Shown here in pieces: positions 28,595 through 46,121 of a stretch of 64,000 bases of DNA. Every line of letters begins with the position of its first letter. Within the stretch, counting starts at the first letter, position 1. Both the position numbers and the translations under genes were made by a program. The DNA comes from Enterobacteriaceae bacterium 89 (GTDB lineage Bacteria; Pseudomonadota; Gammaproteobacteria; Enterobacterales; Enterobacteriaceae): positions 372,001 to 436,000 of the forward strand of contig RQJH01000001.1 in assembly GCA_014156375.1 (NCBI GenBank), written 5' to 3'. The notes under the pieces were generated by a model, which ran no database searches, had not been told where the DNA came from, and worked only from the letters and a program-made list of their open reading frames with translations.

Positions 28595-28614
28595 GATAAT
28601 TCCCGTCTTCTTAA

Positions 28615-29922: not shown

Positions 29923-30002
29923 GATGACCTCGATTTCGGCACGCAAAAGCCCCCGCGCAAGCGAGTACGCCACGCGTTTGTGCCAGGCAGATTAAAGGAA
30001 AA

Positions 30003-30311
30003 TTAGTGGGCGATAAGGGCCAGCGCTTTGTCGAGCACCGCAGCGCCGCGCATCAGGCCGTAGTCCGCCATGTCGATCACCGCCACGGCTTTCCCCTGCG
30101 GGGCAGCCAGCGCCGTCAGACGAGCGGCTTCGTATTTGACCTGCGGGCCAAGCAGCACCACGTCGGCACCCGGCAGTTCACGTTCGAACTCGGCGACGGG
30201 CACCGCGTAAATGTCCAGCGTCAGTGAGCGCTGCTCGGCTTCGGCCTTCATCTTGTTGACCAGCATGCTGGTCGACATCCCTGCGGCACAGCATAAAACG
30301 ATTCGTTGCAT
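30003..30311 (-). CDS. PTS EIIB, lactose/cellobiose family
   Basis: The 102-aa cytoplasmic EIIB carries the phosphocysteine C8 in the loop LCCAAGMSTSML, followed by ADVVLLGPQVKYE, both diagnostic of the family (compare CSAGMSTSLL in ChbB). It passes phosphate from an EIIA to sugar bound at the EIIC. It is first in the leftward locus. The start at 30311 is chosen over 30341 because the ten extra residues have no homologous counterpart. Confidence 0.9.
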   Translation of the reverse strand: MQRIVLCCAAGMSTSMLVNKMKAEAEQRSLTLDIYAVPVAEFERELPGADVVLLGPQVKYEAARLTALAAPQGKAVAVIDMADYGLMRGAAVLDKALALIAH

Positions 30312-30372
30312 GACTCCCCCCTCCCCTTTGATATCCCCCATCGGCGTGGGCGACTATTTTGTTAAGATTATG

Positions 30373-30437
30373 TAATGGTGAAGGCTATATGAAATTTATT
30401 TTCATGAGTGTGATCGGGGCGTAATTTTTCACCATTA
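30373..30437. promoter_or_regulatory. Nested inverted repeats between PTS locus and RpiR-type regulator
   Basis: A perfect 10-bp inverted repeat TAATGGTGAA (30373-30382) / TTCACCATTA (30428-30437), centres 55 bp apart, encloses a tighter palindrome ATGAAATTTATTTTCAT (30389-30405). TGAAA...TTTCA palindromes are typical RpiR/MurR-family operators. Likely operators of the divergent promoters; the assignment is inferred. Confidence 0.6.
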
Positions 30438-30564
30438 TGTGATTACTCTGCGCATCAGGGATTAGCGAAAACGTAGGCGTCATCAGGAATTAGTGGTATA
30501 AGGAGGGTAATCGATAAGTGAAAAATATTTTCAAACCGTGACATCACGCAAAGGACAGAACCGG

Positions 30565-31308
30565 ATGGACATCGTCGGTCAGCTGCAGGAAGGGATGGGG
30601 CGTTTCAGCGCTCAGGAGTCCCGGGTGGCAGCGTTTATTCTGGAAAATATGAGCTTTACCGCCAGCGCCTCCATTGACGAGCTGGCGGCGAAGGCTGGCG
30701 TCAGCCCGGCGACCATCACCCGTTTCGCGCGTTCGGTGGGCTGCGACGATATTCGCGATTTGCGTAAACAGCTGGCGCAGGCCAGCGAGCGCCGCTCCAC
30801 CTGGCTTCAGGGCAACAGCGCTGCCCTGCCCTCAAGCTGGCGTGACTGCTTTGATGTGGTCACCCTGACGCTGACGCATCAGCTACAGCACACCAACGAA
30901 AGCGCACTGGAAAAACTGAAAGACCGCCTTCTTAACGCCCGCGCAGTGCACTGTTTTGCCCTCGGCGAGCAGGATATTCCGCTCGCCACGCTGCTTCAGC
31001 ACCAACTGCTGCCGCTCGGTATTGCGATTAATCTCTGCCAGGACGGCAATATGATGCGGATGATCGCCAGCACGCTCAGCGACGATCACCTGCTGCTGGT
31101 TCTGGCGACGGGTGCTGCCGATAACCTGCTGCAAAGCGCGACGTTGCAGGCCAGAATGCAGGGGGCGACAATCTTTGCCCTCACTCCACAGGGCCATGCG
31201 CTTGGCAATATGGCCGCCGGGGTGATGCCACTGGCGCCGTCACCACAGGCCGCGCGGTATGCTCTGCTGATGCTGGTCGACCTGCTGAACGATACCTTGA
31301 TCGCATGA
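30565..31308 (+). CDS. RpiR/MurR-family transcriptional regulator
   Basis: The 247-aa protein has an N-terminal RpiR helix-turn-helix domain (SIDELAAKAGVSPATITRFA, about residues 35-54) and a C-terminal SIS sugar-phosphate binding domain (about 115-240, with LLLVLATGAADNLLQSATL). Such regulators sense phosphosugars. Divergent from the EIIB-GH4-EIIC genes, it very likely controls them with a 6-phospho-disaccharide as effector. The ATG at 30565 follows AAAGGACAG; a GTG at 30538 would add nine residues and is less likely. Confidence 0.85.
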   Translation: MDIVGQLQEGMGRFSAQESRVAAFILENMSFTASASIDELAAKAGVSPATITRFARSVGCDDIRDLRKQLAQASERRSTWLQGNSAALPSSWRDCFDVVTLTLTHQLQHTNESALEKLKDRLLNARAVHCFALGEQDIPLATLLQHQLLPLGIAINLCQDGNMMRMIASTLSDDHLLLVLATGAADNLLQSATLQARMQGATIFALTPQGHALGNMAAGVMPLAPSPQAARYALLMLVDLLNDTLIA

Positions 31309-33951: not shown

Positions 33952-34416
33952 ATGAATTACCACCAGTACTACCCTGTCGACATCGTCAACGGCCCCGGCA
34001 CTCGCTGCACCCTGTTCGTTTCTGGCTGCGTCCACGAATGTCCTGGCTGCTACAACAAGAGCACCTGGCGGCTGAACTCCGGCATGCCGTTTACTCTGGA
34101 AATGGAAGACAAGATCGTCAGCGATCTTAACGATACCCGTATTCCGCGCCAGGGGCTGTCGCTGTCTGGCGGCGATCCGCTGCATCCAAAGAACGTGCCG
34201 CATATCCTGCGCCTGATAAAACGCGTTCACGCTGAATGCAAAGGGAAAGATATATGGCTCTGGACGGGTTATAAAATCGGTGAGCTTACGGCTGAGCAAA
34301 AAGAAGTGGTGGATTTGATTAACGTACTGATTGATGGAAAATTTGTGCAGGATTTAAAAGATCCGGCGCTGATCTGGCGCGGTAGCAGTAATCAGGTGGT
34401 CCATCATCTGCGTTAA
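33952..34416 (+). CDS. nrdG: NrdG, anaerobic RNR-activating radical SAM protein
   Basis: The 154-aa radical SAM enzyme installs the glycyl radical on NrdD. The 4Fe-4S cluster cysteines are in CVHECPGC (CX3CX2C), about residues 26-33, and LSLSGGDPL is the SAM-binding GGE-like motif. The ATG at 33952 is the first Met and gives the E. coli length. No clear Shine-Dalgarno is seen in the 25 bp after the repeat (GAGTCCAAA only). Confidence 0.97.
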   Translation: MNYHQYYPVDIVNGPGTRCTLFVSGCVHECPGCYNKSTWRLNSGMPFTLEMEDKIVSDLNDTRIPRQGLSLSGGDPLHPKNVPHILRLIKRVHAECKGKDIWLWTGYKIGELTAEQKEVVDLINVLIDGKFVQDLKDPALIWRGSSNQVVHHLR

Positions 34417-34432
34417 TCGTTCGCGACTAAAT

Positions 34433-34461
34433 AAAAAAACGCCCGCAGGCGTTTTTTTTAT
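34433..34461. terminator. Bidirectional terminator between nrdG and ymcF-like gene
   Basis: A-run, stem ACGCC / GGCGT extended by A/T pairing (34433-34443 and 34448-34458, loop CGCA), T-run. It ends nrdDG rightward and, on the other strand, the small ymcF-like gene. Confidence 0.9.
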
Positions 34462-34655
34462 TTACGGTAGTCAGCAGGCGTATAACCCGACTGAATAAAC
34501 GTAAAGACGTTATCAAACGGCACCATGGCCGATTTACAAAAAATGCATTTCGCACCATGCGGATTGCTCGCCGTCACGTCGTATGCCGACGTGCGGTACT
34601 GGGAGCCATGGCAGCATGGGCAGCGAAAATGGATAGCATTAGTCATATTTTTCAT
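34458..34655 (-). CDS. YmcF/YnfQ-family small zinc-ribbon protein
   Basis: A 65-aa protein (62 aa from the next Met at 34646) with two CXXC pairs, CPCC and CIFC, around SQYRTSAYDVTASNPHGAK. It closely resembles the small cold-shock proteins YmcF and YnfQ of E. coli (62 aa), which accompany cspG/cspI. Here it stands alone, with no csp gene beside it. AAGGTGA lies 6 bases before the ATG at 34655, which decides that start; a GTG at 34664 is possible. The function is unknown; zinc binding is inferred from the cysteines. Confidence 0.8.
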   Translation of the reverse strand: MKNMTNAIHFRCPCCHGSQYRTSAYDVTASNPHGAKCIFCKSAMVPFDNVFTFIQSGYTPADYRK

Positions 34656-34664
34656 ATCAATCAC

Positions 34665-34944
34665 CTTTATAATTTTTTTGGGTAAATGGTTTGAAACAAA
34701 ATTTGACGAGGTAGAAAAGAAAAAACCACAGGGGAATATCGAGAGATACTACAGATGATGGGAATTGCTTTTTAAATGTTACTTCAGTAAATTTTCACGT
34801 TCAAACCGAACTATCATTAACGCATGAATATTGTCACCCGACAAGCGCTGTTCTACAAAGAATTGTAAATATTATTTCTTTTCCTCATCGTTGACGCTGA
34901 GCAGTCATCACCTTTAATGATGACTGCCGGAAATAACTGGTTGA
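34665..34944. other. AT-rich gap upstream of the ymcF-like gene
   Basis: About 280 bp without an ORF of note. It must contain the ymcF-like promoter and 5' leader. A 10-bp inverted repeat GCAGTCATCA / TGATGACTGC (34901-34910 and 34918-34927) lies just past the stop of the leftward PRD regulator and may be its transcript end, although no T-run follows. Confidence 0.5.
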
Positions 34945-36855
34945 TTAAAAACGACTGACGCACTCCATCGCCACGGTTTTAAACTCGGTGAAATTTTTGC
35001 ACTGGCATAAGCGCGCCATCGCTCTTTCCCGCAGGAAAGTGACAAAAATATCATAAATCGCCATCGCTTCTTCGTATTCGCTTTTGCTGATCGCCAGCAG
35101 GAAAATCACATGGGCCGTTTCATCGCCCCAGGCAATGCCTTTCGGGGCCAGCACGGTGTAGACCACCGTTTTCCGCGCCAGCAGGCCTAAGGCGTGCGGC
35201 AGCGCAATGCCATCACCCAGCATGGTGCTGACAATCGCTTCACGTTCAAGGACAGACCCGACAAACTCAGGATCGACAAAGCCTTCTTCGGTTAGCTGCT
35301 CACACAGCTCGCTAATCAGCGTTTGCTGATCGACTGGCTCATGGATCACGCGGAAATGGCGGGCATCGAAGTATTTTTCCAGCATCCACGGACGGGTTCT
35401 GTCCACCAGCACCAGTTTGCCGATCTGTTCCAGCTGATACTCCGTCGGGAACGGAGACATCACTACCACCGGCTTATCTTTTTCGGTGATGCGTACCGTG
35501 GTAACCACAAAATCTTCGCTGATACTTTCGCGCTGTTCGTAGTCGCGCTGGGTGATGGTTTCGGTCATCACCAGCTGCGGATATTTGCGCTGCAACACGG
35601 CCTCAATCATGCGCACCATCGCGTTGCCTGCATCGCACACCAACAGCACGCGCGGCTGGCGCTGATAGCCGATGTTGTAATGCCGCTCCAGGCCCACGCC
35701 GATATGCAGCACCAGGAATCCGATTTCGTTTTCGCTGATGGTCCACGGCGTGTATTTGCTCCAGCCGGATACCGCCGCCAGGGTCATATCCCAGGCCATC
35801 GGATAGTGCTGCTTGATGTTATCCAGCAGTGGATTGGGGATCATTATCTGGTAGCGCACGCGGGTGATCATGGTGCGAATATGCGTCAGTAAATCCGCGT
35901 GTAGTTGCTCATCGCTGAGCAGATTGTAGTTATAGTGGGTGTTGATGTAGTGCAGGATGTAGTTCACCAGCGCTTCGTCATCGTCGGCGTTGATATGGCC
36001 AGGCTCCATCTCCTGCACCTGACGCGCAGCAATGTGCACCCGCAGCCAGTTCTCTTCTGAGGCCGCCAGCGTTTTTCCGGTGAGCTGTTCAAGCGTGCCC
36101 GCGATAGCCTGCGCCGCCTGCACCACCTTTTCATCCACGTCATCGGCGGTAAATTCCGGCAATGGATAGCCTTCGCTGATACGACGCACCGCCACCGCGC
36201 AGTACAGGCGCACGAACAGCTCGCCTTCGTCCGTCAGGCGGATGTGGTAGCGGTTGAATACTTCCTGCAAAACACCGGCTAATTTTTCTGGCACGCCTTC
36301 GTTCAGCGCTTCTTTGATAACTAATGGATTCGCACTGTCCTGCTGCGCCAGCTGCCACAGCAAGTCCGTCAGACAGGCGCGGATCGCCATTTCGCTGCCG
36401 AACAGCTTCACGCCGTGGCGCGGGCGGGTTTCCAGCGTCAGCTGATAGCGCGCCAGCCATTCGCGCACTTCGGCCATATCGCCCTGAAGTGTGGCACGGC
36501 TGACAAACCATTCATCAGCTAAATCTTCGAGCTTGAGGGAAAAGGCCGAAGTCAGAAAACGCACCATCAGATAGTGCACGCGCTCGCTTCCCGTGCGCGG
36601 GATGCGCAGGGTACGAGGCCGTGAGTCCTGTAGGGATTCAAAGAGGTCTCGATCGTCGATTCTGAGCTGGTAGCCGTTGCCCCGGCTCAGCACAAACTGC
36701 GCGCCGTGCTGAGCCAGCAGTGCATTGAGCGCGGTAATGTCAGCCCGAACGGTACGCGTGGAAACGGACAACCGCTGCGCCAGTTCGTCCTGCGGCAGGG
36801 TTTCGTTTTGCAACAGATCAAACAGTTGCGCTAAGCGTTGGTTCGGGAATCGCAC
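34945..36855 (-). CDS. LicR/MtlR-type PRD transcriptional regulator with EIIB- and EIIA-like domains
   Basis: The 636-aa protein has an N-terminal DeoR-like HTH (RLAQLFDLL...LSVSTRTVRADI, residues 7-45), a second HTH (LEDLADEWFVSRATLQGDM), two PTS regulation domains (about 185-395, with candidate phosphohistidines in VHIAARQ, EQLHADLLTH and VLHIGVGLERH), an EIIB-Gat-like segment (VLLVCDAGNAM, Cys near 408) and a C-terminal EIIA type-2 domain with the active-site His in IALPHAL. Such proteins are DNA-binding activators whose activity follows PTS phosphorylation. It is the last gene of the leftward cluster and the best candidate regulator of it. GTG start at 36855 with AAGAGGA upstream. Confidence 0.88.
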   Translation of the reverse strand: MRFPNQRLAQLFDLLQNETLPQDELAQRLSVSTRTVRADITALNALLAQHGAQFVLSRGNGYQLRIDDRDLFESLQDSRPRTLRIPRTGSERVHYLMVRFLTSAFSLKLEDLADEWFVSRATLQGDMAEVREWLARYQLTLETRPRHGVKLFGSEMAIRACLTDLLWQLAQQDSANPLVIKEALNEGVPEKLAGVLQEVFNRYHIRLTDEGELFVRLYCAVAVRRISEGYPLPEFTADDVDEKVVQAAQAIAGTLEQLTGKTLAASEENWLRVHIAARQVQEMEPGHINADDDEALVNYILHYINTHYNYNLLSDEQLHADLLTHIRTMITRVRYQIMIPNPLLDNIKQHYPMAWDMTLAAVSGWSKYTPWTISENEIGFLVLHIGVGLERHYNIGYQRQPRVLLVCDAGNAMVRMIEAVLQRKYPQLVMTETITQRDYEQRESISEDFVVTTVRITEKDKPVVVMSPFPTEYQLEQIGKLVLVDRTRPWMLEKYFDARHFRVIHEPVDQQTLISELCEQLTEEGFVDPEFVGSVLEREAIVSTMLGDGIALPHALGLLARKTVVYTVLAPKGIAWGDETAHVIFLLAISKSEYEEAMAIYDIFVTFLRERAMARLCQCKNFTEFKTVAMECVSRF

Positions 36856-36905
36856 TCGGTGTCCTCTTGATTCTGTCGGGCGAAGTACGCCCGACCTTTT
36901 GCCTG

Positions 36906-38054
36906 TTATTTTGCTGATATCACCATTTGCGACGGGCTTCCCACCGCAGTGTAGCCCGGTTCAAACGTCAGCTTGCCGGTCTTTGGCGCGACCTTAAAGC
37001 GGGTGATATTGTCGCTACGCTGGTTCATCACGTACAGCCACTGGCCTTTTGGATCCAGCGTCACGGTGCGCGGGTAGTCACCACGGGTCCACATATCATC
37101 CTGATGAATAAGCTCTCCGTCGGCAGATACCGTAAAGTGTGCGACGCTGTTATGCAAACGATTGGCGACATAGAGCTGTTTTCCGTCATGACTCAGCGCC
37201 AGACCAGCAGCAAAGTTGGTGCCTTTAAACTCTTTTGGCAGGGAAGAAACCGTTTTGCCTTCCGTCAGCGTCCCTTTCGCCAGATCCAGACGATAATGGG
37301 TCAGCGTGGAGGCCTCTTCGTTGATTAACCATAGCCCATCGCCTTTTGGCGTAAAGACAAAGTGACGCGGCCCGGCTCCTTTCGAAGAAGCATTGATAAA
37401 CGGCGGATCGTTCGGCGTCAGCTTGCCGCTGGCGTCGTCAAAGGTGTACTGATAGATCCGATCCAGACCCAGATCCGTCGAAAAGACGTATTTGCCCTGA
37501 GGATCGGCGGAGATCATATGCGCATGCGGGCCATTATGATCGCTGATGGCAAAGCTGCCTTCCGCTGCGGCCTCCGGTTTTCCTGCTCCGGCCGGGCCCT
37601 GATCCTGATGAGTGTCAGTAGCTTCGCCCAGTGAACCATCCTCTTTCACCGGCAGCACTGCAATAGTACCGCTGACGTAGTTGGCCACCAGCAGATGACG
37701 GCCATTCGGCGTCAGTGACAGATACACAGGACCCGCACCGCCGGAGGAAACCTGATTCAGCTCCGTCAGAGAACCGTCATCGGCGATCTTCATCGCCTGC
37801 ACCAGCCCTTTTTCCGCTTCGCTGGCGACATACAGCGTGTGACCATCTTTTGAAACCGTCAACTGCGCCGCGTTTGGCAGCGAACTGACCAGGGTTTTAT
37901 TTTGCAGATCGCCAGTGTGGGGATCGACCGTAAAGCGGTACAGCCCTTCACCGTTCGGATTATAGGTGCCAACCCAGGCAAACTGAGTTTGCGCGGTGGC
38001 GGCGGTGGCAAGCAGAGAGAATGAAGCGACAAGCAGGTGACGTGCAGACAGCAT
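36906..38054 (-). CDS. Exported beta-propeller lactonase (6-phosphogluconolactonase/YbhE fold)
   Basis: The 382-aa protein has a clear signal peptide (MLSARHLLVASFSLLATAATA, cleavage about residue 22) and seven-bladed propeller repeats such as TPNGRHLLVANYVSGTI and DPKGQWLYVMNQRSDNI. The fold is that of YbhE/Pgl lactonases and cycloisomerase-2 enzymes, but E. coli Pgl is cytosolic while this one should be periplasmic. It may open a sugar lactone (or cyclic ester) before import. Its place between the DUF4310-type operon and the PRD regulator suggests a linked role; substrate unknown. Start supported by AAGGAGTCATC. Upstream lies a palindromic repeat, so it may have its own promoter. Confidence 0.8.
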   Translation of the reverse strand: MLSARHLLVASFSLLATAATAQTQFAWVGTYNPNGEGLYRFTVDPHTGDLQNKTLVSSLPNAAQLTVSKDGHTLYVASEAEKGLVQAMKIADDGSLTELNQVSSGGAGPVYLSLTPNGRHLLVANYVSGTIAVLPVKEDGSLGEATDTHQDQGPAGAGKPEAAAEGSFAISDHNGPHAHMISADPQGKYVFSTDLGLDRIYQYTFDDASGKLTPNDPPFINASSKGAGPRHFVFTPKGDGLWLINEEASTLTHYRLDLAKGTLTEGKTVSSLPKEFKGTNFAAGLALSHDGKQLYVANRLHNSVAHFTVSADGELIHQDDMWTRGDYPRTVTLDPKGQWLYVMNQRSDNITRFKVAPKTGKLTFEPGYTAVGSPSQMVISAK

Positions 38055-38083
38055 GATGACTCCTTGACGGTTGCGGTTATTTT

Positions 38084-38203
38084 CCCCTCACCCTAACCCT
38101 CTCCCCGGAGGGGCGAGGGAATCGATCGGCGTCGGGGATGGGTACTGAGGTAAGCGGGCGGTTTTCTCCCTCTCCCTTTTGGGGAGAGGGCCGGGGTGAG
38201 GGG
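38084..38203. repeat. CCCTCTCCC palindromic intergenic repeat, copy 7 (aldolase-lactonase)
   Basis: A 120-bp copy in inverted orientation: CCCCTCACCCTAACCCTCTC at the left, GGGGAGAGGGCCGGGGTGAG at the right, with two hairpins. It separates the eight-gene operon from the lactonase gene and may stabilise the upstream mRNA 3' end. Confidence 0.9.
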
Positions 38204-38206
38204 AAA

Positions 38207-38947
38207 TTACCCCACCAATTTTTTAGTCATTTCCAGCAAAGTACGAACATCTTCAGGACGCGTGTCACCGCTGTCTTTATCGATGATAGAGCTGTAGATA
38301 TGCGGGATCACTTTCTTCACGCCGGCATCCAGCGCGATCTTCAGGATTTCGCTGTAGTTCTCCAGATCGATCCCGCCGGTTGGTTCCAGCCAGAAGTCGT
38401 GACGGGCGCAGGCTTCTGCCACCACTTTGTACTCGTCACGGCTTTTCAGACCGCCCATCGGGAAGTATTTCACCGAGCTACAGCCCATGTCTTTCAGCAT
38501 CGCAATCGCGGTTTCAACGGGCACAATCCCGTCCTGCTCTTTGCTGCTCAGCGGACCGGTGGAGATTTTCACCATGCCTGGCGTGCCGGTTGGGGAAACC
38601 AGACCGTTGACTACGGTATCGTTCTGACCGAGCAGCGCGCGGCTGGTCGCTACGCCGGTGAACACCTGGTTCACGTGCTGCGGCTGCACTTCACGGGAGA
38701 TTTCACTCACCATCTGTGACTGGTTTGGATCGCCAGCACCCAGGCCTACGGACAGCGCGTTATCGATAAGCTTCGCGTATTCGCGCATATCGGCCACCGC
38801 CGTTGGCACGTCCGGATAGTTTTTGGAGAGGACGCCTACCAGTACATGACCTTCCGCCGCTTCATAAACGGCGCTGGCGTTAGCTTTGGAGCCTGCCAGT
38901 ACGTTCAGGCATACGCGGTCACGATAGTAATTTGGGGTCAGTTTCAT
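38207..38947 (-). CDS. KDGP-aldolase-like protein (DgaF / EF_0839-AHA_3917 family)
   Basis: The 246-aa TIM-barrel protein belongs to the family that includes DgaF, the 2-keto-3-deoxygluconate-6-phosphate aldolase of Salmonella D-glucosaminate use. A KDPG-aldolase-like active-site segment VKYFPMGGLKS (likely Schiff-base Lys) and a phosphate-binding GGIDLENYSEIL are visible. It should split a 2-keto-3-deoxy sugar-acid phosphate to pyruvate and a triose phosphate. It overlaps the upstream PLP-enzyme gene by 4 bases (ATGA), so the two are translationally coupled and act in sequence. It is the last gene of the eight-gene operon. The exact substrate is not shown. Confidence 0.83.
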   Translation of the reverse strand: MKLTPNYYRDRVCLNVLAGSKANASAVYEAAEGHVLVGVLSKNYPDVPTAVADMREYAKLIDNALSVGLGAGDPNQSQMVSEISREVQPQHVNQVFTGVATSRALLGQNDTVVNGLVSPTGTPGMVKISTGPLSSKEQDGIVPVETAIAMLKDMGCSSVKYFPMGGLKSRDEYKVVAEACARHDFWLEPTGGIDLENYSEILKIALDAGVKKVIPHIYSSIIDKDSGDTRPEDVRTLLEMTKKLVG

Positions 38948-40062
38948 GCGTTTTTCTCCTTGTTCAGCACTTCGGCAATCCGTTGTGCCACGATATCCAG
39001 CTGCTGTGCGTTTACGCTGCGCACATCGGCTTCAATAATGCCTTCATTAGCTTTGTAGCCACGGAAGTAGATGGCGTATTCGCCCTGCTTCAGCGCAGCC
39101 ACCACATCTCCGGTCGGCACGCGGGTCACCGCTTCATCAAATTTGATTTCCGCACGGGCGATATCACGACCGGCAGAGTCCCAAACCACGCGGGCAGTCA
39201 CGCCGTTCAGCTCATTCAGGGCAGCGATAAACGGCGTCATTTTTTCCACCATCTGCGCACCGCTTTCTTTCTCGGCGTGCAAGTAGTATTCGATAGCGCA
39301 GGTCAGGCCAAGAATGCCTTCTTTACCGACTTTCATCGCGCGGCCAATGCCGCCGGTCTGGCGTTTTACCCACTCAACGTACTGAGTTTTGCCGATCACC
39401 AGCCCGCTGGTCGGCCCTTCAATCGCTTTCGCGCCGCTGTAGATAACCAGGTCCGCGCCCATGCGGTAGTAGCACTGCAAATCTTCTTCCGCCGCCGCAT
39501 CTACAATCAGCGGCAGGTTGTGTTTACGCGCGACTTCCGCCGCCTGGGACACGTTCAGCATGCTCTTCTGCACGCAGTGGTGAGATTTGATGTAAAGGAT
39601 CGCAGCAGTTCGCGGGGTTATCGCCGCCGCCAGCTGATCGGCTGAACATTCGTTGGCGTAACCGGCTTCCACCAGTTTGCCGCCGCCCAGCATCACCATG
39701 GTGCCAACCGGCGCGCCAAAGTTAACGTTGTGGCCGCGCGGCAGGACGATTTCGTTGTTCTCAATCGTGGTACCGTGCAGATTCTCCAGCAGCCAGTCGC
39801 TGTCTTTGACCAGCACCGCAGCGATGGACTGAGCGATACCTGCGGAAGCGCAGGACACCACGGTCGCGCCTTCCACATCCAGCAGCTTCGCGATGTATTC
39901 TCCGGTTTTGTTCACCAGGTCTTTCATTTCAAAGTACTGATTCATCCCCGCCATCGCCGCTTCCACCACTTCCGGGCGCGGTGTGGAAACGCCCAGCGCG
40001 GTCATGCGGCCGGAGGTGTTGATCACTTGTTTCAGCTGGTACTTCTCAAAAATCGAAGGCAT
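38944..40062 (-). CDS. SelA/DgaE-like PLP-dependent ammonia-lyase
   Basis: The 372-aa PLP enzyme is of the selenocysteine-synthase-like group (EF_0838/AHA_3916) that includes DgaE, D-glucosaminate-6-phosphate ammonia-lyase. The PLP lysine is K212 in YSGAKAIEGPTSG and the pyridine-contacting Asp is D188 in LIVDAAAEED. It begins MPSIFEKYQLKQVINTSG. It would remove ammonia from a 2-amino sugar-acid phosphate, giving the 2-keto-3-deoxy product for the next enzyme. Start at 40062 (AAGGGAG 8 bases upstream) rather than GTG at 40071; it overlaps the amidohydrolase gene by 17 bases and the aldolase by 4. Confidence 0.85.
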   Translation of the reverse strand: MPSIFEKYQLKQVINTSGRMTALGVSTPRPEVVEAAMAGMNQYFEMKDLVNKTGEYIAKLLDVEGATVVSCASAGIAQSIAAVLVKDSDWLLENLHGTTIENNEIVLPRGHNVNFGAPVGTMVMLGGGKLVEAGYANECSADQLAAAITPRTAAILYIKSHHCVQKSMLNVSQAAEVARKHNLPLIVDAAAEEDLQCYYRMGADLVIYSGAKAIEGPTSGLVIGKTQYVEWVKRQTGGIGRAMKVGKEGILGLTCAIEYYLHAEKESGAQMVEKMTPFIAALNELNGVTARVVWDSAGRDIARAEIKFDEAVTRVPTGDVVAALKQGEYAIYFRGYKANEGIIEADVRSVNAQQLDIVAQRIAEVLNKEKNA

Positions 40063-41179
40063 GTTCTGCACTCCCTTGTTCGGTCATATAGCCCTTGCCC
40101 GCGCGAATCGCAGCCAGCGGTACCAGATCCAGGTCCACTTCGAGGGCGTTGTTTTCGGCATCCACCAGCGTCAGCGGCTGGCGTTTCAGAGTAAAAATGG
40201 TCAGGTCGGCATCAAAGCCCACCGCCAGCTGGCCTTTGTGCTTCAGGCGGATAGCCTCGGCAGCGTTAGCGGTCACGCAGTTGATGACCTGCGGCAGCGA
40301 CAGGCCGATAGCGAGGAATTTCGCCATCACCCGCGCCAGAGAATGCACCGGCCCGTTGATGCGGTTACGGCAGTAAATGTCGGAGCTGATGGTGTGCGGC
40401 AGAATGCCCTGCGCAATCGCCAGCTTCGCGACTTCGAAACTGAAGCTCGCAGTGCCGTGACCGACATCCAGCTTGATCCCGCGCTTGAGCGCGTCGGAAA
40501 CGGAAGCGCGCAGCTCACCCGCAGGCGTCAGAATGCGGTTTGGTTTACCGTTGTAGCAGTGGGTGATGATGTCGCCGGAGGTCAGCAGTTCGGTGATCTC
40601 ATCCAGGTTCGGCGGGTTGTTGCCGATGTGCACCATCAGCGGTAAATCGCCGTTGGCCTTCTGGATCTGCTTCGCTTTTTCCAGCGGGGTAATACCGTTT
40701 TCACCGACCACGCTGCTGCTCATACGCGCTTTCAGGCCAACGATAAAATCCGGATGACGCTTGATGGCAGCACCTGCCGCCTCAGCGTCAATGTTCGCCA
40801 TGTTCGCCAGCTCGTTCTGCGCAATCAGCCCCACTTTGGAGATATTGAGCAGCGCGCGGACGTCGGTGCCGCATTTACGGGTGATGTCGTAGAACTCGTC
40901 CACGTCATCGGCGCCGGTGCTGCCCGCATCGATCACGGTCGTTACGCCCGTTGCCACGCCCACGCTGTCGGGCTCATCGTTGTAAATCGGCGATTTCGGA
41001 TAGCAGTGGACGTGTAAATCAATCCAGCCTGCGCTGACATAGTGCTCCCCGTTCAGGGAGACGACTTTCGTCGCCTCACCGTTCAGGTTGCCCAGGGCCG
41101 CAATCTTTCCGTCTTTAATGGCGATATCCGTTACCGTATCGTCAACCAGGCGTGCGCCCTTAAGCAGTAAATCAAACAT
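40046..41179 (-). CDS. Amidohydrolase/deacetylase (EF_0837/AHA_3915 family)
   Basis: The 377-aa metal-dependent hydrolase is of the dihydroorotase-like superfamily. The HxH metal motif is H56-V-H58 in DLHVHCYPKS; a candidate carboxylated lysine is K150 in FIVGLKARMSSS; later ligands lie in VHIGN, THCYNG and the Asp/His of DVGHGTASF. The family was named only for its place in a conserved uncharacterised cluster. Given the enzymes downstream, removal of an N-acyl group or opening of a cyclic amide is plausible. It follows the DUF4310 gene by 18 bases. The substrate is unknown. Confidence 0.83.
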   Translation of the reverse strand: MFDLLLKGARLVDDTVTDIAIKDGKIAALGNLNGEATKVVSLNGEHYVSAGWIDLHVHCYPKSPIYNDEPDSVGVATGVTTVIDAGSTGADDVDEFYDITRKCGTDVRALLNISKVGLIAQNELANMANIDAEAAGAAIKRHPDFIVGLKARMSSSVVGENGITPLEKAKQIQKANGDLPLMVHIGNNPPNLDEITELLTSGDIITHCYNGKPNRILTPAGELRASVSDALKRGIKLDVGHGTASFSFEVAKLAIAQGILPHTISSDIYCRNRINGPVHSLARVMAKFLAIGLSLPQVINCVTANAAEAIRLKHKGQLAVGFDADLTIFTLKRQPLTLVDAENNALEVDLDLVPLAAIRAGKGYMTEQGSAEHAFDF

Positions 41180-41197
41180 CGCTTTCTCCTTGCAGAC

Positions 41198-41842
41198 TTA
41201 ACCGATAGCCACCGGGAAGATGGAACCGAGGATCATCGCGCCGAGGATAGCGCCACCGGTGATCGGCTTCTGCCAGATGTAGAAAATTAATGCGCCAACC
41301 AGCGAACCAATCCCGATCGGAATGGAAGCCGTCATTGCACTGAGGATAATCAATGGGCCGAGGAAGCGGCCGGAGGCGTTACCCGCGCCCATCATCACGT
41401 CGGCACCGTAGGTGGAATCGCTCTGATTAACGGTGAATTTACGCGCCAGGATGATCACGTAACCAATCGCCAGGCCAATCACCAGCCCCGTCACCAGGGA
41501 AGCGGCAAAGTTCGCCACCGGGAAGACGATGCCCGCGCCCAGCAGCAGCGCCGGAACGCCAAGGCCTACGCCAGTCTGGATCGCGCCGCCGATATCGAGG
41601 ATCCCCACCAGAGAACCTTCAATGATTCGGGCAAACAGGAAGCTCGCGCCGAAAGCCGCTACCGCGCCGTAAACGCCGGTATCCATCCCTGCTTTCAGCA
41701 TCGCCACGAAGGCCACTTCGTTGAAAGCACCAATGCCGTACAGGTAGTACATGTGTGTCCCGGCGAACACGCCGGAGGAGAGCAGGCCAACAAAAATCGG
41801 GAATGACCAGTCTGCGTACCAAAAACCTTTATTCTGTTCCAT
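41198..41842 (-). CDS. DUF4310-family membrane protein (EF_0833/AHA_3914)
   Basis: The 214-aa inner-membrane protein has about six hydrophobic segments, many glycines (GGAIQTGVGLGVPALLLGAGI) and a conserved N-terminus FWYADWSFPIFVGLLSSGVFAGTHMYY. It has no recognised transporter signature. It always appears beside DUF4311, DUF4312 and SFCGS proteins in the remembered family description, so it is probably one of two membrane subunits of a transport complex. AAGGGGATACC precedes the ATG; 11 bases separate it from the DUF4311 gene. Function not established. Confidence 0.85.
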   Translation of the reverse strand: MEQNKGFWYADWSFPIFVGLLSSGVFAGTHMYYLYGIGAFNEVAFVAMLKAGMDTGVYGAVAAFGASFLFARIIEGSLVGILDIGGAIQTGVGLGVPALLLGAGIVFPVANFAASLVTGLVIGLAIGYVIILARKFTVNQSDSTYGADVMMGAGNASGRFLGPLIILSAMTASIPIGIGSLVGALIFYIWQKPITGGAILGAMILGSIFPVAIG

Positions 41843-41853
41843 GTGGTATCCCC

Positions 41854-42630
41854 TTATTTGCCGCTCAGCGAGTTATGCAGCAGATCCAGCCAGTTCGGCA
41901 CGGTCATATGGAAGGATTCGATCATCTTCATGTCGAAGCCGCGGAAGAAGCCGCTCAGGACGAACAGGACAATCACTGCCGCCATCATCACCTTGGTGAT
42001 TTTGTTCCAGCCCGCTTCTTCTACGCCCTTACCAATCAGGATACCCAGCACCAGGCCAGGAACGGCGTTACCCATAATCAGCTGCGCTGCGCCGCCGAAA
42101 ATAGTCGCCCAGAAGCCAGATTTCTTACCGGCGTCAATCGCCGCCAGCCAGAAGATAACCGGCATCACGGTGTTCACCAGCAGGTTGGCCGCAGGGACCA
42201 GCACCTTAACGGCGGTGACCTGAAGCGCTTCCGGCACGGCGGAAGCCGTGGAGTTCAGGAAGGCCACCACGATCATGCCAATCACGCCGCAGGCAATCGC
42301 CATTTTCTTAGGATTGTGCAGCGTTTCACCGACGTTGCGGTTTTTCAGCATCAGGGCAGAAGCACCCCAGTGCGGGATGATGCGGTGGTCAACGTCCTGA
42401 GTGAAGGAACCCGCCGCTACGGACGATGCCCAGGCGTTGAAGAAGAAGCCCAGACCGAAGGAGAAGTGTGAAGCCGGGTCGCCCTCGCAGGAGTTGAGTT
42501 CGCCCAAAGTACGAAATGCACCCATCCCTTGCGTGGTGGGCGCATGAAACATGCGTGCAGCTCCGGCGCCCACACCGACGCCGACCAGGCCACCGATAAT
42601 AAGCGATTTAATAAGGATAATCAGGAACAT
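41854..42630 (-). CDS. DUF4311-family membrane protein (EF_0832/AHA_3913)
   Basis: The 258-aa protein starts with a hydrophobic helix (FLIILIKSLIIGGLVGVGVG) and has about six membrane segments with a glycine-rich, channel-like composition; a longer polar stretch (APTTQGMGAFRTLGELNSCEGD) follows the first helix. It is the second membrane component of the cluster. No domain of known function is recognisable. It is likely to assemble with DUF4310, with DUF4312 and SFCGS proteins on the cytoplasmic side; this is inferred from strict neighbourhood and topology. Confidence 0.85.
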   Translation of the reverse strand: MFLIILIKSLIIGGLVGVGVGAGAARMFHAPTTQGMGAFRTLGELNSCEGDPASHFSFGLGFFFNAWASSVAAGSFTQDVDHRIIPHWGASALMLKNRNVGETLHNPKKMAIACGVIGMIVVAFLNSTASAVPEALQVTAVKVLVPAANLLVNTVMPVIFWLAAIDAGKKSGFWATIFGGAAQLIMGNAVPGLVLGILIGKGVEEAGWNKITKVMMAAVIVLFVLSGFFRGFDMKMIESFHMTVPNWLDLLHNSLSGK

Positions 42631-42651
42631 GAGTCTGTCCTTTTCTAATGG

Positions 42652-42951
42652 TTATGTTGTCGTGACGAAATCCACTTTGTCGAGGTTTAACGCTGTCACG
42701 TTGACGGTGACATCCAGCTCCACGCTGAACGTGCGTCGTTCCCGGCGCAGAAAGAAAAACAGAAAGGCTTCTTTCCGGACCGCTTCCCGCGCCTGAACAA
42801 CCACCACGTCCTGTGGTTCAATGCGCAGCAGAATTTTTGGCGATGACTTCATCACCGCCCCTTGTACCTGGTTGAGCGCATCGGCGAAGGCGCGTGCTTT
42901 GGCCTCGCCTTTGCCCTTCACCCTCACCGTGGTGGTGAATTGTTCTTTCAT
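42652..42951 (-). CDS. DUF4312-family small cytosolic protein (EF_0831/AHA_3912)
   Basis: The 99-aa soluble protein has a beta-rich pattern (TTTVRVKGKGEAKARAFADA, then VELDVTVNVTALNLDKVDFV) and a conserved FLFFFLRRERRTFS segment. Unknown function. The gene starts 2 bases after the SFCGS stop codon, which points to strong coupling and equal production. It could be a soluble subunit or energy-coupling partner for the DUF4310/4311 membrane pair. Confidence 0.83.
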   Translation of the reverse strand: MKEQFTTTVRVKGKGEAKARAFADALNQVQGAVMKSSPKILLRIEPQDVVVVQAREAVRKEAFLFFFLRRERRTFSVELDVTVNVTALNLDKVDFVTTT

Positions 42952-42953
42952 AC

Positions 42954-43316
42954 TTACGCGCCGTACTTTTTCTGCCAGGCCAGCACCAGGCGCTCGCCGA
43001 GCTCTTCTTTGTCCATAAAGCCGAAGCCCAGCACGTTGGCGCCTTCGTTGATAGCGGTAACGCCTTCTTCAACGGAGCGCATGCCGTATTTGGCTTTGTA
43101 GCCGTGCTTGGTCTGTGCGGTAATCGCACCTGCACCGCCGCTGCCGCAGAAAGAGATGCCGAAGGTCGCGTTTTCCGCCTTCATCACATCGCCGAGCTTC
43201 ATATCAGCAGCCACGCCCGGAACCACCACGGCACGTCCACCCGCTTTTTCCACGCCTGCTGCCACTTTCTGGCCTTTGCCCAGACGATCGCCAATCACTA
43301 CGGTAATTTGTTCCAT
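42954..43316 (-). CDS. Glycine-rich SFCGS-family protein (EF_0830/AHA_3911)
   Basis: The 120-aa cytosolic protein begins ITVVIGDRLGKGQKVAAGVE and carries the family signature SFCGSGGAGAITAQ with a single striking cysteine, C57. The loop recalls the phosphocysteine loop of galactitol-type PTS EIIB proteins (CGSG-x-A-T/S) but lies mid-protein instead of near the N-terminus. It is also reminiscent of E. coli YhfU (CNTGAGAAL). Met at 43316 with AAAGGAGAAAC is clearly the start; the longer open frame reaches into the PRD gene. A role as phosphocarrier or sugar-binding subunit is conjecture. Confidence 0.85.
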   Translation of the reverse strand: MEQITVVIGDRLGKGQKVAAGVEKAGGRAVVVPGVAADMKLGDVMKAENATFGISFCGSGGAGAITAQTKHGYKAKYGMRSVEEGVTAINEGANVLGFGFMDKEELGERLVLAWQKKYGA

Positions 43317-43326
43317 GTGTTTCTCC

Positions 43327-43656
43327 TTAAAGGTTTTCTTTTGCCACTTCGAAGTGCACCGACAGCAGCCAGGCTTCTTCATCCGGAAGGTTGCCAAACT
43401 GCGCCACCACTTCACGGGCAAGCGTCATTGATTCGGGTGAAATTTCTTCAAACAGGCTGGCTTCCACTTCCGGTAACGGTTCACCGGTCATTGACCGATG
43501 CGCCATGGCGCGGACGTGTGATGTCAGCATTTGTTCCTGGACGTCGTTGGGGATGATGTCATGACCTTTCAGCAGGCTGTACACCTGGCTCAGCATGCGT
43601 GTCGCAAGCTCTTCTGTCTGACTCCCTACGTCGGTAATGACTGCTCCGTTGTTCAC
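43327..43656 (-). CDS. Small PRD-domain protein (EF_0829/AHA_3910 family)
   Basis: About 109 aa from a GTG at 43656 (VNNGAVITDVGSQTEELATR). It is a single PTS-regulation-domain-like helical protein with candidate phosphohistidines in LTSHVRAMAHRS and LLSVHFEVA. It lacks a DNA- or RNA-binding domain, so it may relay PTS phosphorylation to a partner. A longer frame opens at GTG 43773 but would run through the 20-bp palindrome at 43726-43745 and has no family support for its N-terminus; the start remains uncertain. First gene of the operon; SFCGS follows after 10 bases. Confidence 0.78.
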   Translation of the reverse strand: MNNGAVITDVGSQTEELATRMLSQVYSLLKGHDIIPNDVQEQMLTSHVRAMAHRSMTGEPLPEVEASLFEEISPESMTLAREVVAQFGNLPDEEAWLLSVHFEVAKENL

Positions 43657-43725
43657 TCTTCTGACCCCGTTTGTTGCGTCTGAGTTAAAACTAACGCGCG
43701 GGATTTCCGGTTTGTAGCGAGTTGT

Positions 43726-43745
43726 TTTCCACTTCGAAGTGGAAA
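43726..43745. promoter_or_regulatory. Perfect 20-bp palindrome upstream of the DUF4310-type operon
   Basis: TTTCCACTTCGAAGTGGAAA reads identically on both strands. It lies 70 bp before the first gene. Its 13-bp core CCACTTCGAAGTG recurs at 43344-43356 near the 3' end of the same gene. Candidate operator of the cluster regulator; it could also fold in the mRNA leader. Confidence 0.65.
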
Positions 43746-43809
43746 GGTGAGCGGCAGGAGTGATCTGTCCCACATAATTTGGCTGAATACGGATTTAATG
43801 CTGGATAAG

Positions 43810-43825
43810 CGTGATGAATGTCACG
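43810..43825. promoter_or_regulatory. CRP-like site upstream of the DUF4310-type operon
   Basis: CGTGATGAATGTCACG keeps the GTGA-N6-TCAC core of CRP sites. On the minus strand a TATTCA hexamer at 43784-43789 would place it near -41, a class II activator position for leftward transcription. The promoter hexamer is weak, so this is tentative. Confidence 0.5.
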
Positions 43826-43965
43826 GGAATCTGCTGAGAAAAAGCGGAAGCGCGGCGACGAAACCTTGCGAAGCAACTCGTAGAATTGTGATCCGGATAA
43901 GATTTTTTTATGACGTTACGGAAGAATACCCGCGGGTGCTTGAGGCTTTTCGTCTCAGGCATGGG

Positions 43966-44040
43966 ACGAGAAGAAGAAAGCCCCACATTGACTCTAAATC
44001 AAGATGGGGCCTTGAACCTTCACGTTCCGACACGCGAAGG
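43966..44040 (-). ncRNA. Sok-like antisense RNA (approximate ends)
   Basis: On the minus strand a stem GCCCCA...TGGGGC (43979-44011) is followed by the pyrimidine-rich tail TTTCTTCTTCTC, an intrinsic terminator pointing away from hok. The plus strand here reads GGGTGCTTGAGGCTTTTCGT, then GAAGAAGAAAGCCCC, closely matching the mok/sok region of chromosomal hokC-type loci. The antisense RNA would block translation of the toxin mRNA. The 5' end is a guess. Confidence 0.5.
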
Positions 44041-44077
44041 GATACTGCCTTATCTGCAACGTCGCAAGGAGGCATCC

Positions 44078-44242
44078 GTGAAACGTCCACAACCCATTGT
44101 CCGGGTTATGTTGATAATTGCTGTGACAATTATCGCACTGACTCTGATCATGCAACGAACCGTTTGCGAAATTTACTATCGCAGTGGTTCGCAGGAAGTG
44201 CACGCTCTACTGGATTGCAAGCCGGAGAGGAAGCAACAATAG
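44078..44242 (+). CDS. Hok/Gef-family type I toxin
   Basis: A 54-aa membrane peptide starts at GTG 44078, five bases after a perfect AAGGAGG. It has one hydrophobic helix (VMLIIAVTIIALTLIM) followed by the Hok/Gef signature RTVCEIYYRSGSQEVHALL (compare [20 protein letters not shown] in R1 Hok). Such peptides depolarise the inner membrane. The frame is open upstream to 43910, consistent with an in-frame mok-type overlapping leader as in gef/hokC. With the Sok-like antisense region just upstream it forms a complete type I toxin-antitoxin locus, not part of the E. coli K-12 nrdG-cybC interval. Confidence 0.82.
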   Translation: MKRPQPIVRVMLIIAVTIIALTLIMQRTVCEIYYRSGSQEVHALLDCKPERKQQ

Positions 44243-44249
44243 CATGAAA

Positions 44250-44281
44250 CTGGCGGGCGAAATTCCGAATTTCCCCGCCAG
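44250..44281. terminator. Hairpin at the 3' end of the hok transcript
   Basis: The near-perfect inverted repeat CTGGCGGGCGAAATT / GAATTTCCCCGCCAG (44250-44281) lies 8 bases after the hok stop. No T-run follows, so it may act as a stabilising 3' structure instead of a simple terminator. Confidence 0.6.
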
Positions 44282-44317
44282 CCTTCCGTTAAGAGCGTAG
44301 GGCTCAGGCACCCATTC

Positions 44318-44704
44318 TTAACGATACTTCTGGTGATAGGTATTGCGGGTTCCGGCGAGATCTTTCGCCACGCCCTGCGCTTCCTTGATTTTGCCTTCGT
44401 TAGCAAGCTTTGTGGCGTTATCAATCTGACCAATCAGAATGTCAAAGCCGTGGCGGAAGTCTTTCATTTCCGGGCTGTCAGGCGCTTTGTTTTCCAGCTT
44501 CGGTGGCGTCTGCTTCTGGGCATCCTGTGCCGCGGTGCGCATCTTCGCGAGAGCCGCTTTCATTTCAGCGGCGTCGTCACTTTTCTGCACAATTTTCAGA
44601 TTTTCGGACAGAGTATCCATGTCCTCGCCAAGGTCAGCAAAGGCCGGGGCGACGCCCATTATCAGGGTTGAGGCCGCGACGATGGCCAGCAGGTGTTTAC
44701 GCAT
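44318..44704 (-). CDS. cybC: CybC, soluble cytochrome b562
   Basis: The 128-aa periplasmic four-helix-bundle haem protein has a signal peptide (residues 1-23, ending APAFA). The axial haem ligands M29 (DLGEDMDTL) and H124 (NTYHQKYR) of the precursor are both present, equivalent to M7 and H102 of the mature E. coli protein. It carries electrons; its physiological partner is unknown. It is complete here, with a full signal peptide. It lies downstream of pmbA on the same strand, as in E. coli. Confidence 0.96.
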
Positions 44705-44768
44705 TGCTCACTTCCTTTTTCTTATTGGACAGGTTTGACGCGCTGAGCGCGCCACCATGAGAACACTG

Positions 44769-46121
44769 TTATTGACCGGCGATTTTCATTTCCGGCAGCA
44801 GTACGGATCCGCACTGAATATTGCTACGCGTTTCGATGTCATCGGCCACGGTCACGATGTCACGCCACATCTCTTTCAGGTTTCCGGCGATGGTAATTTC
44901 GCTCACCGGATACTGGATTACGCCATTCTCCACCCAGAAACCTGAAGCGCCGCGCGAGTAATCTCCCGTTACGCCGCTTACACCCTGGCCCATCAGCTCT
45001 GTCACCACAAGGCCGGTGCCCATCTCTTTAAGCAACTTTTCAAAACTCAGGCCGCGACCTTTGATGCGCCAGTTATGAATGCCGCCCGCGTGCCCGGTGC
45101 TTTTCAGCCCCAGTTTCCGCGCGGAGTAGTTAGTCAGCAGCCACTGGGTCAGAATGCCGTCTTTGATGATGTCGCGACGTTCCGTACGCACCCCTTCGCT
45201 GTCGAACGGCGTAGAGGCCAGCCCTTTCAGCAGGTGTGGATGCTCTTCAATGGTCAGCCATTCCGGCAGGATTTGCTTACCGAGAGAATCCAGCAGGAAG
45301 GTGGACTTACGGTAAACCGCGCCGCCCGCAATCGCGCCAACCAGATGGCCGAACAGCCCGGTCGCCACTTCGTTGGCGAAAATCACCGGCGCTTTCATGG
45401 TCGACAGCTTACGCGGCGACAGGCGGGACAGCGTGCGTCTGGCGCAATCAGCACCGACGGATTCGGGGTCATTCAGATCGCCCAGCGCGCGGCCAATGGT
45501 GTACGCATAGTCACGCTCCATATCGCCGTTTTCTTCCGCGATCACGCAGCTGGAAAGCGAATGACGGGTAGAGCAGTAGCTTTGCAGCATGCCGTGGCTG
45601 TTGCCGAAGACTTTAATCCCGTAGTGGCTGTTGAAGCTGCCGCCTTCGGTATTGGTGATACGTTTGTCCGCCTTCAACGCGGCTTGTTCAGCGCGAGCCG
45701 CCATTTCGATGGCTTCGTCCGGGGTTACTTCCGCCGGGTGGAACAGATCAAGATCAGGTGCGTCAAAGGCCAGCAGCTCTTTTTCCGCCACGCCGGCATA
45801 AGGATCCGGCGAAGTGTAGCGCGCGATATCCAGCGCAGCCTGTACGGTGCGGGCAATCGCCTCCGGGCTTAAGTCCGTGGAGGAAGCGCTGCCTTTGCGA
45901 TTCTGATGATAAACGGTGATGCCAAGCGCACCATCGCTGTTGAATTCAACATTTTCCACTTCGCCATAGCGCGTGCTGACGCTGATCCCGGTGGTTTTTG
46001 AGACGCCAACCTCAGCGCCGTCAGACTTGCCTGCGGCCTGCTCCAGCGCGGTGGAGACGGCTTTTTCCAGTGCTTTACGCTGTTCTGCAACCTGTGTGAT
46101 GACTTTCATCGCTAATGCCAT
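44769..46121 (-). CDS. pmbA: PmbA/TldE, metalloprotease TldD partner
   Basis: The 450-aa protein has the E. coli length and is nearly identical in the central region ([20 protein letters not shown]). TldD-TldE is a hetero-oligomeric cytosolic protease that matures microcin B17 and degrades the CcdA antitoxin; TldE lacks the HExxH-type metal site that TldD supplies. C-terminal motifs [15 protein letters not shown] and [11 protein letters not shown] are typical. Divergent from darP. Confidence 0.97.

Follow-up and report, generated by a model that had tools for sequence, protein, structure and literature searches.

The dga system of Salmonella, which acts on D-glucosaminate, consists of a mannose-type phosphotransferase system (PTS; DgaABCD), the lyase DgaE and the aldolase DgaF. 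In the ong pathway of Pseudoalteromonas, N-acetylglucosaminate (GlcNAc1A) from oxidised chitin is deacetylated, deaminated by a pyridoxal phosphate (PLP) enzyme to 2-keto-3-deoxygluconate (KDG) and enters as KDG-6-phosphate, steps given as proven in the accessible passages of two reports (PMC9537276, PMC12017989). The 64,000 nt stretch of Enterobacteriaceae bacterium 89 analysed here (contig RQJH01000001.1, positions 372,001-436,000; the window) carries a run of eight minus-strand genes, from 43656 to 38207, encoding in order a PRD protein, SFCGS, DUF4312, DUF4311, DUF4310, an amidohydrolase, a lyase and an aldolase. It has the DgaE-family lyase, DgaF and the predicted end products in common with dga but adds a deacylase, has the PRD, SFCGS, DUF4312, DUF4311 and DUF4310 genes in place of enzyme II (EII), and has a lyase that does not reach the DgaE equivalog cut-off. 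The deacetylation, PLP deamination and entry point of the ong pathway would be alike, but that pathway uses OngB, OngC, an SSS symporter and KdgK, according to the passages available (PMC9537276). On balance, we read the run as an operon for the breakdown of an N-acylated 2-amino-2-deoxy-aldonic acid, with a new transporter, perhaps PTS-linked. The chemistry is known, and what is new is probably an uncharacterised uptake system. The genes of the cluster, with scores given against the model cut-offs where these apply, are as follows:

43327-43656, minus strand: stand-alone PRD protein (EF_0829/AHA_3910 family); TIGR03582, 138.4 vs 69.35 bits
42954-43316, minus strand: SFCGS glycine-rich protein; TIGR03577, 218.5 vs 141.1 bits
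42652-42951, minus strand: DUF4312 small protein, apparently soluble; TIGR03578, 136.4 vs 89.65 bits
41854-42630, minus strand: DUF4311 membrane protein (hydropathy peaks), candidate permease subunit; TIGR03580, 515.1 vs 301.1 bits
41198-41842, minus strand: DUF4310 membrane protein (hydropathy peaks), candidate permease subunit; TIGR03579, 396.5 vs 215.45 bits
40046-41179, minus strand: amidohydrolase/deacylase (EF_0837 family); TIGR03583, 561.3 vs 432.15 bits
38944-40062, minus strand: DgaE-family PLP ammonia-lyase; TIGR01437, 603.9 vs 385.3 bits
38207-38947, minus strand: KDG-6-phosphate (KDGP) aldolase DgaF; NF047796 equivalog, 398.5 vs 300 bits, and TIGR03581, 411.7 vs 222.4 bits
36906-38054, minus strand: 7-bladed beta-propeller lactonase; PF10282, E 9e-100; N-terminus signal-peptide-like by eye
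34945-36855, minus strand: HTH-Mga-PRD-EIIB-like-EIIA transcriptional regulator; PF08279, PF05043, PF00874 and PF00359, with CDAG and LPH motifs

Each of the eight operon proteins scored above its curated NCBIfam cut-off, with every model of TIGR03577-TIGR03583 and TIGR01437 matched, so the gene set claimed in the original prediction is real. The gaps of 2-21 bp and overlaps of 4-17 bp that it gave are exact (10, 2, 21, 11, 18, -17 and -4 bp, with the lyase start at ATG 40062), and the conservation of the neighbourhood was borne out as well. At least 498 relatives were confirmed in the genome scan, and in all of the best 80, which were located through DUF4311 (79 titled Enterobacterales and one Chryseobacterium), the eight genes are kept in one order and on one strand. 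The PRD gene begins with GTG at 43656 and is 330 bp long (109 aa). The lactonase and then the PRD/EIIB/EIIA regulator lie 3′ of the aldolase on the same strand, at spacings of 152 bp (aldolase to lactonase) and 50 bp (lactonase to regulator), and are found in 49 (by tblastn) and 79 of the best 80 loci, respectively. Gene content, order and conservation are direct observations, as are the transporter swapping and the conserved active-site motifs described below.

The DUF set is read as a transporter mainly because the transporter type swaps around the same enzymes. Clusters of C. difficile, Niallia and Priestia have the deacylase, DgaE, DgaF order of the operon but differ in carrying, without the DUF set, either a lactose-type PTS with MupG (C. 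difficile, and Niallia, where EIIC and a partial EIIB were found) or a gluconate:H+ symporter (Priestia), plus a PfkB kinase. A mannose-type PTS accompanies the lyase and aldolase in L. paracasei and in the separate dga operon of the window's own genome, where IIA, IIB, IIC and IID were all matched (40, 57, 66 and 62% identity to L. paracasei) and the deacylase had no match. The DUF-set proteins themselves had no match in the C. difficile, Niallia, L. paracasei or Priestia loci. They stand together with all three enzymes in 80/80 of the best genome loci, on both Bartonella plasmids and in E. faecalis, which holds a lactose-type EIIC and MupG besides. It is thus likely that DUF4310 and DUF4311 transport the substrate, and it is chiefly this swapping that supports the original choice of the DUF proteins as the best candidates for uptake. 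The accompanying statement, that EIIC, ABC and MFS genes are absent, is correct for the cluster in the window, where none were found, but fails for the E. faecalis relative with its PTS EIIC, MupG and kinase.

DUF4310 and DUF4311 might instead form a membrane sensor or an enzyme complex with SFCGS, while an unlinked permease imports the substrate. The RpiB-like character of SFCGS, the lack of any detected transporter homology for DUF4310/DUF4311 and the EIIC of E. faecalis are in keeping with this, as is a lactose-type EIIC gene 6 kb beyond the regulator in the window (27278-28582; product 36% identical to the EIIC of C. difficile), though only one of the best 80 loci (L085) has such a gene within the fetched flanks. 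This alternative is improbable, given that four related clusters with close enzymes and no DUF set adjoin a transporter while the Bartonella DUF cluster adjoins none, and that identity to the Bartonella and E. faecalis proteins is 68-74% for the two membrane proteins, compared with 66-74% for the aldolase and 48-61% for the deacylase and the lyase. The EIIC gene lies outside the cluster beyond the nrd genes, as does a lactose/cellobiose-type EIIB gene at 30003-30341; together with a gene for an RpiR-family regulator they make up a separate PTS locus (27278-31308). A further transporter type, a DASS anion symporter, adjoins a distant deacylase relative (31%) in Pantoea sp. Nvir (L142:6833-7996).

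The predicted order of chemistry (deacylation, ammonia elimination, aldol cleavage) and the substrate class are also supported, again chiefly through the related clusters. The operon-ending aldolase exceeds the cut-off for the KDGP aldolase DgaF, which indicates a C6 sugar acid, and the gluconate symporter in the transporter slot of Priestia indicates a gluconate-like one. The substrate class is probably an N-acylated 2-amino-2-deoxy-aldonate, such as N-acetyl-D-glucosaminate or a near relative. The lyase belongs to the TIGR01437 family but does not reach the cut-off of the DgaE equivalog model (367.6 against 600 bits), and a separate true DgaE (673.9 bits) is encoded in the same genome. Aligned to DGL (7lc0), the mechanism of which is described in passages of PMC9529869, the window lyase keeps the His-His pair and the PLP-lysine motifs; across the family, SHH is present in 82/83 sequences (SAH in one) and SGAKA in 82/83. 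Solved close relatives of the deacylase are 8wzy and EF0837 (2ics), and the match to solved PpOngB (9kb1) is weak (E 9e-4 over 71 residues). Among 85 deacylases, the motif patterns HxH, Lys, H, H and D, which we take to be the metal-site residues, occur in 85, 73, 84, 84 and 85, respectively.

Some other N-acyl-D-beta-hydroxy-alpha-amino acid is a quite improbable natural substrate. Such a compound would suit Phyllobacterium and Sagittula, where distant relatives of the deacylase and lyase (34-38%) are grouped with RidA and ABC transporter genes, no DgaF being matched; for cog3964 relatives, Ornelas in 2013 reportedly found N-acetyl-D-serine and acetyl-(R)-mandelate to be substrates. It is difficult to reconcile with an aldolase above the DgaF equivalog cut-off at the end of the operon. 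The literature on the E. faecalis genes, in the passages available, includes a suggested role of EF0839 in amino-sugar metabolism, the description of EF0838 as potentially critical and fitness hints from transposon sequencing (PMC7701990), as well as the appearance of EF_0838 in biofilm proteomics (PMC11135667). A dgaF gene, copy unspecified, is among the enrichments of urinary isolates in the passages of PMC10746210. No function for DUF4310, DUF4311, DUF4312 or SFCGS was found in the titles, abstract openings and passages of the full-text literature, subscription papers lying outside its scope.

In the proposed scheme, a sugar lactone would first be opened outside the cytoplasm in those loci that carry the lactonase. 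The acid would then be imported by DUF4310/DUF4311, which together with the PRD protein, SFCGS and DUF4312 would make up the uptake system, coupled to the PTS through the PRD protein, so that the acid would be the 6-phosphate on arrival. Its acyl group would be taken off by the TIGR03583 amidohydrolase, and the DgaE-family PLP enzyme would eliminate water and release ammonia to give 2-keto-3-deoxy-6-phosphogluconate, which DgaF would split into pyruvate and glyceraldehyde-3-phosphate. The operon would be switched on by the PRD/EIIB/EIIA regulator and CRP.

Signs of a PTS link come from Bartonella and from the PRD protein. On both Bartonella plasmids a gene for the PRD regulator and one for a 671-aa HPr-EI fusion follow the cluster, an arrangement that argues for a phosphotransferase link of transport or of regulation. 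The fusions keep the active-site motifs GLHARP (HPr) and GGATSH (EI), and their closest relatives among the matches listed (54-55%) are from Caballeronia and Paraburkholderia, one of them adjoining a PTS glucose IIBC gene. The HPr-EI fusion may supply the transporter, the PRD protein or the regulator, or all three together. On the HY406 plasmid, the annotation (of the plasmid only) shows no other PTS gene, PRD genes aside, and no sugar kinase, and a tblastn search with PfkB gave no match. The PRD residues His49 and His103 are invariant in 93/93 distinct sequences (the alignment numbering begins two codons upstream). The original prediction, which was partly supported in its interpretation, missed the invariant histidines, the Bartonella HPr-EI and the probable likeness of SFCGS to RpiB. 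Coupling of transport to the PTS is possible, at a little under an even chance.

The distribution of kinases bears on the same point. In all, 92 loci and the window were searched by tblastn with PfkB from C. difficile, E. faecalis and Priestia, with flanks of up to about 10 kb outside the window and with PfkB as the sole kinase family sought. Matches were confined to these three and Niallia, and matches to MupG to C. difficile, E. faecalis and Niallia. PfkB is therefore present in 4/4 clusters with MupG or a symporter, in 0/85 DUF-set loci without MupG (the best 80 genome loci, L016, L017, L018, L136 and the window) and in neither of the two mannose-PTS clusters. In our reading, cells that take in the free acid through a symporter, or release it from a disaccharide with MupG, need a kinase, which becomes superfluous where a PTS phosphorylates the acid on entry. 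The absence of PfkB from the DUF-set loci without MupG agrees with a DUF system that phosphorylates the acid as it enters.

A more specific reading, that the PRD protein, SFCGS, DUF4312, DUF4311 and DUF4310 constitute an unrecognised class of PTS permease, with the yhf operon (YhfY, YhfU, YhfT) as a second branch, is unlikely, though not remote. In such a permease, HPr would phosphorylate a histidine of the stand-alone PRD protein (as IIA), and the phosphate would go on, perhaps by way of SFCGS Cys57 (as IIB), to the sugar acid carried by DUF4310/DUF4311. The yhf clusters of E. coli and Cetobacterium resemble the operon in combining a stand-alone PRD protein, a small glycine-rich protein with a cysteine, a protein with multiple transmembrane segments and catabolic enzymes. 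The YhfY PRD is homologous to that of the operon (E 5e-6; 0/100 shuffles as good), and the likeness between SFCGS and YhfU (DUF2620) is suggestive (2/100 shuffles as good). They differ in that the membrane proteins have no detectable homology (29/100 and 56/100 shuffles were as good as the DUF4310 and DUF4311 profiles against YhfT) and in that the second PRD histidine is not kept in YhfY. A likeness of YhfU to RpiB (3/100 shuffles as good) is not claimed. The gene order in Cetobacterium (L158:5294-13657) is YhfZ, PRD, DUF2620 (YhfU), YhfT and enzymes, namely an amidase, a phosphotriesterase-related protein, two PLP enzymes and a phosphopentomutase, and the same families occur in the E. coli yhf operon.

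SFCGS probably has a soluble RpiB-like fold, as modelled and compared by several lines that are each weak alone. With a profile of five sequences the best solved relative was E. coli RpiB (E 0.5, not significant alone), and hhalign against an RpiB profile scored 24.95, where 60 column shuffles reached no more than 20.9. An AlphaFold2 model (pLDDT 70, pTM 0.73, residues 58-77 under 50) placed RpiB first in Foldseek (E 0.035, not significant alone). In VIA-align its ten best rows were all RpiB (Z 8.1-9.2, 107-113 residues aligned, root-mean-square deviation 3.1-3.5), with a small gap to unrelated proteins from Z 7.9 down. SFCGS as an EIIB was rejected, the lactose EIIB 3nbm being fifth in Foldseek, below RpiB (TM 0.40).

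An active sugar or sugar-phosphate isomerase/epimerase, converting a stereoisomer of the substrate ahead of the deacylase, is a further possibility for SFCGS, and an improbable one. RpiB was the top match by profile, Foldseek and VIA-align, and Cys57, invariant in 67/67 distinct sequences, aligns with the cysteine of CGTG in E. coli RpiB, so that the probable fold and the Cys-Gly-[ST]-Gly motif are common to SFCGS and the RpiB/LacA isomerases. Missing from SFCGS are the equivalent of the catalytically important RpiB His99, where Asn90 stands, and the C-terminal phosphate-binding arginines, as the protein ends before the C-terminal part of RpiB. The SFCGS gene also stands with the DUF genes, not with the enzymes, in 80/80 of the best loci. 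The lines that make an RpiB-like fold likely do not make RpiB activity so.

Several observations weigh against a PTS-linked transporter for an N-acylated sugar acid. The transport role of DUF4310/DUF4311 is one that we infer from gene context, as we do the substrate class and the PTS coupling. Neither protein has a sequence link to ManY, ManZ, lactose or ascorbate EIIC, GntP or YhfT: in hhalign neither protein, compared with the four PTS families, beat the best of 40 shuffles, the closest pair being DUF4311-ManY (1/40 shuffles as good), and profile comparison with GntP gave no link. In Pfam the DUF proteins matched their own families only, with no recognised EIIA, EIIB, EIIC or EIID domain, and a known transporter family, the finding that would contradict the original prediction, had no match by sequence. 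The AlphaFold2 model of DUF4310 (66 sequences, 85-98% identical to the window) reached only pLDDT 44 and pTM 0.30. The PRD protein and DUF4312 are poorly conserved (36-49% identity to Bartonella and E. faecalis), SFCGS is likened to a soluble isomerase and not to a PTS EIIB, and no lytic polysaccharide monooxygenase (LPMO) was found in this genome. The HPr-EI fusion could serve the regulator alone in Bartonella. Few independent lineages lie behind the kinase rule (three with and four without, by our own count), E. faecalis combines the DUF set with a KDG-kinase-like PfkB, and KdgK is encoded elsewhere in the genome (530 vs 400 bits), so an operon without a kinase does not force phosphorylation on entry. 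Four lyase positions split the two PTS-fed from the three kinase-bearing clusters (small sets, with kinship not removed), and the window lyase has the kinase-group residue at two of them and the PTS-group residue at none. Its identity is likewise 55% to C. difficile, against 50% to L. paracasei and 42% to the DgaE of its own genome. PTS coupling is given less weight because of this leaning of the lyase.

These last points favour the main rival, ion-coupled uptake, in which DUF4310/DUF4311 would import the free acid, its deacylation and deamination would yield KDG, this would be phosphorylated by the chromosomal KdgK before DgaF, and the PRD protein and the Bartonella HPr-EI would serve regulation only. 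The ong pathway runs in this way, with KdgK essential according to the passages available (PMC9537276), and Priestia pairs its symporter with a kinase. The HPr-EI fusion beside both Bartonella copies and the lack of an annotated or PfkB-matched sugar kinase on the HY406 plasmid argue in the other direction, as do the contrast between 0/85 and 4/4 for PfkB and the dga operon of the window's own genome, a PTS version without PfkB. We consider ion-coupled uptake a tentative alternative, clearly short of an even chance.

Few bacterial proteins are catalogued as well as uptake systems. If the transporter reading is true, a system outside the recognised families that Enterobacterales share with E. 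faecalis and certain Bartonella plasmids would be a genuine addition to them, and PTS-linked uptake without a recognisable EIIC would alter how the PTS is defined. The operon would also give bacteria without ong genes a way to use N-acetylglucosaminate, which is formed when chitin is cleaved oxidatively. Two Aeromonas species have homologues of LPMO, KdgK and KdgA, and matches to OngB and OngC that are distant or none, according to the passages of PMC11653859. The cluster families are named partly after Aeromonas AHA_3910-3917, and the sole Aeromonas copy found here (A. caviae) is partly deleted.

Of 398 genomes sampled from the phylum, 12 had TIGR03580 (DUF4311), and these were all in the window's family (12 of the 18 listed for it); among genomes of another class of the same phylum the count was 0/385. 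DUF4311 matches in the plasmid collection came from six records (Klebsiella 2, Bartonella 2, Aeromonas 1, E. faecalis 1), and the diversity beyond Enterobacterales rests on these few records. No relative of the cluster was found in viral contigs, and the eight-gene part had no match among 5,426 E. coli genomes. Family alignments excluded rows of far-off length and, except for PRD, rows below 45% identity. Weak second DUF4311 matches in L014 and L015 were dropped, that of L014 overlapping a DjlA-like reading frame by eye. A. caviae KAM479 has lost the middle of the operon: the first part of DUF4310 runs in frame into the last part of the KDGP aldolase as one open reading frame (L017:8663-9274), and neither the deacylase nor the lyase has a match in the locus. 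A DUF4310-DgaF hhalign score of 33.2 was an artefact, as the DgaF set contained this fusion. The best PDB profile match of DUF4312 (E 0.015) was RecA, which is unrelated. In E. faecalis IDRL-9065 (L019:15501-16225), the KDGP aldolase lies in two frames and is unannotated.

Three non-coding elements were seen around the operon:

43810-43825, minus strand: CRP-like palindrome 1, CGTGA-N6-TCACG; predicted site from a consensus scan, 2 mismatches
43759-43774, minus strand: CRP-like palindrome 2, TGTGG-N6-TCACT; predicted site from a consensus scan, 51 bp from palindrome 1
38071-38135, no strand assigned: intergenic repeat in the aldolase-lactonase spacer; 50-56 bp matches in E. coli records

CRP-like sites with at most 2 mismatches occur 5′ of the PRD gene in 86/96 loci, against 13.5 expected from mononucleotide shuffles, the loci being related to one another. 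The lactonase may be transcribed separately from the eight genes. In the five records inspected among 3122 matching, the E. coli matches were confined to the spacer repeat. No Rfam match was found at the gathering threshold in 34400-45000.

The genome is 4.7 Mb, and the flanking gene order is Klebsiella-like (fbp, mpl, yjgA, pmbA, cybC, the cluster, nrdG). Just upstream of the operon, on the opposite strand, an open reading frame (43910-44242, plus strand) has a C-terminal part that is Hok/Gef-like (PF01848, 30.5 vs 22 bits). Distant relatives of the KDGP aldolase (30 and 34%; L148:892-8431 and L147:552-7708) occur with phosphotriesterase and creatininase genes in clusters that adjoin an ascorbate-type PTS in Listeria and a sugar ABC transporter in Alicyclobacillus.

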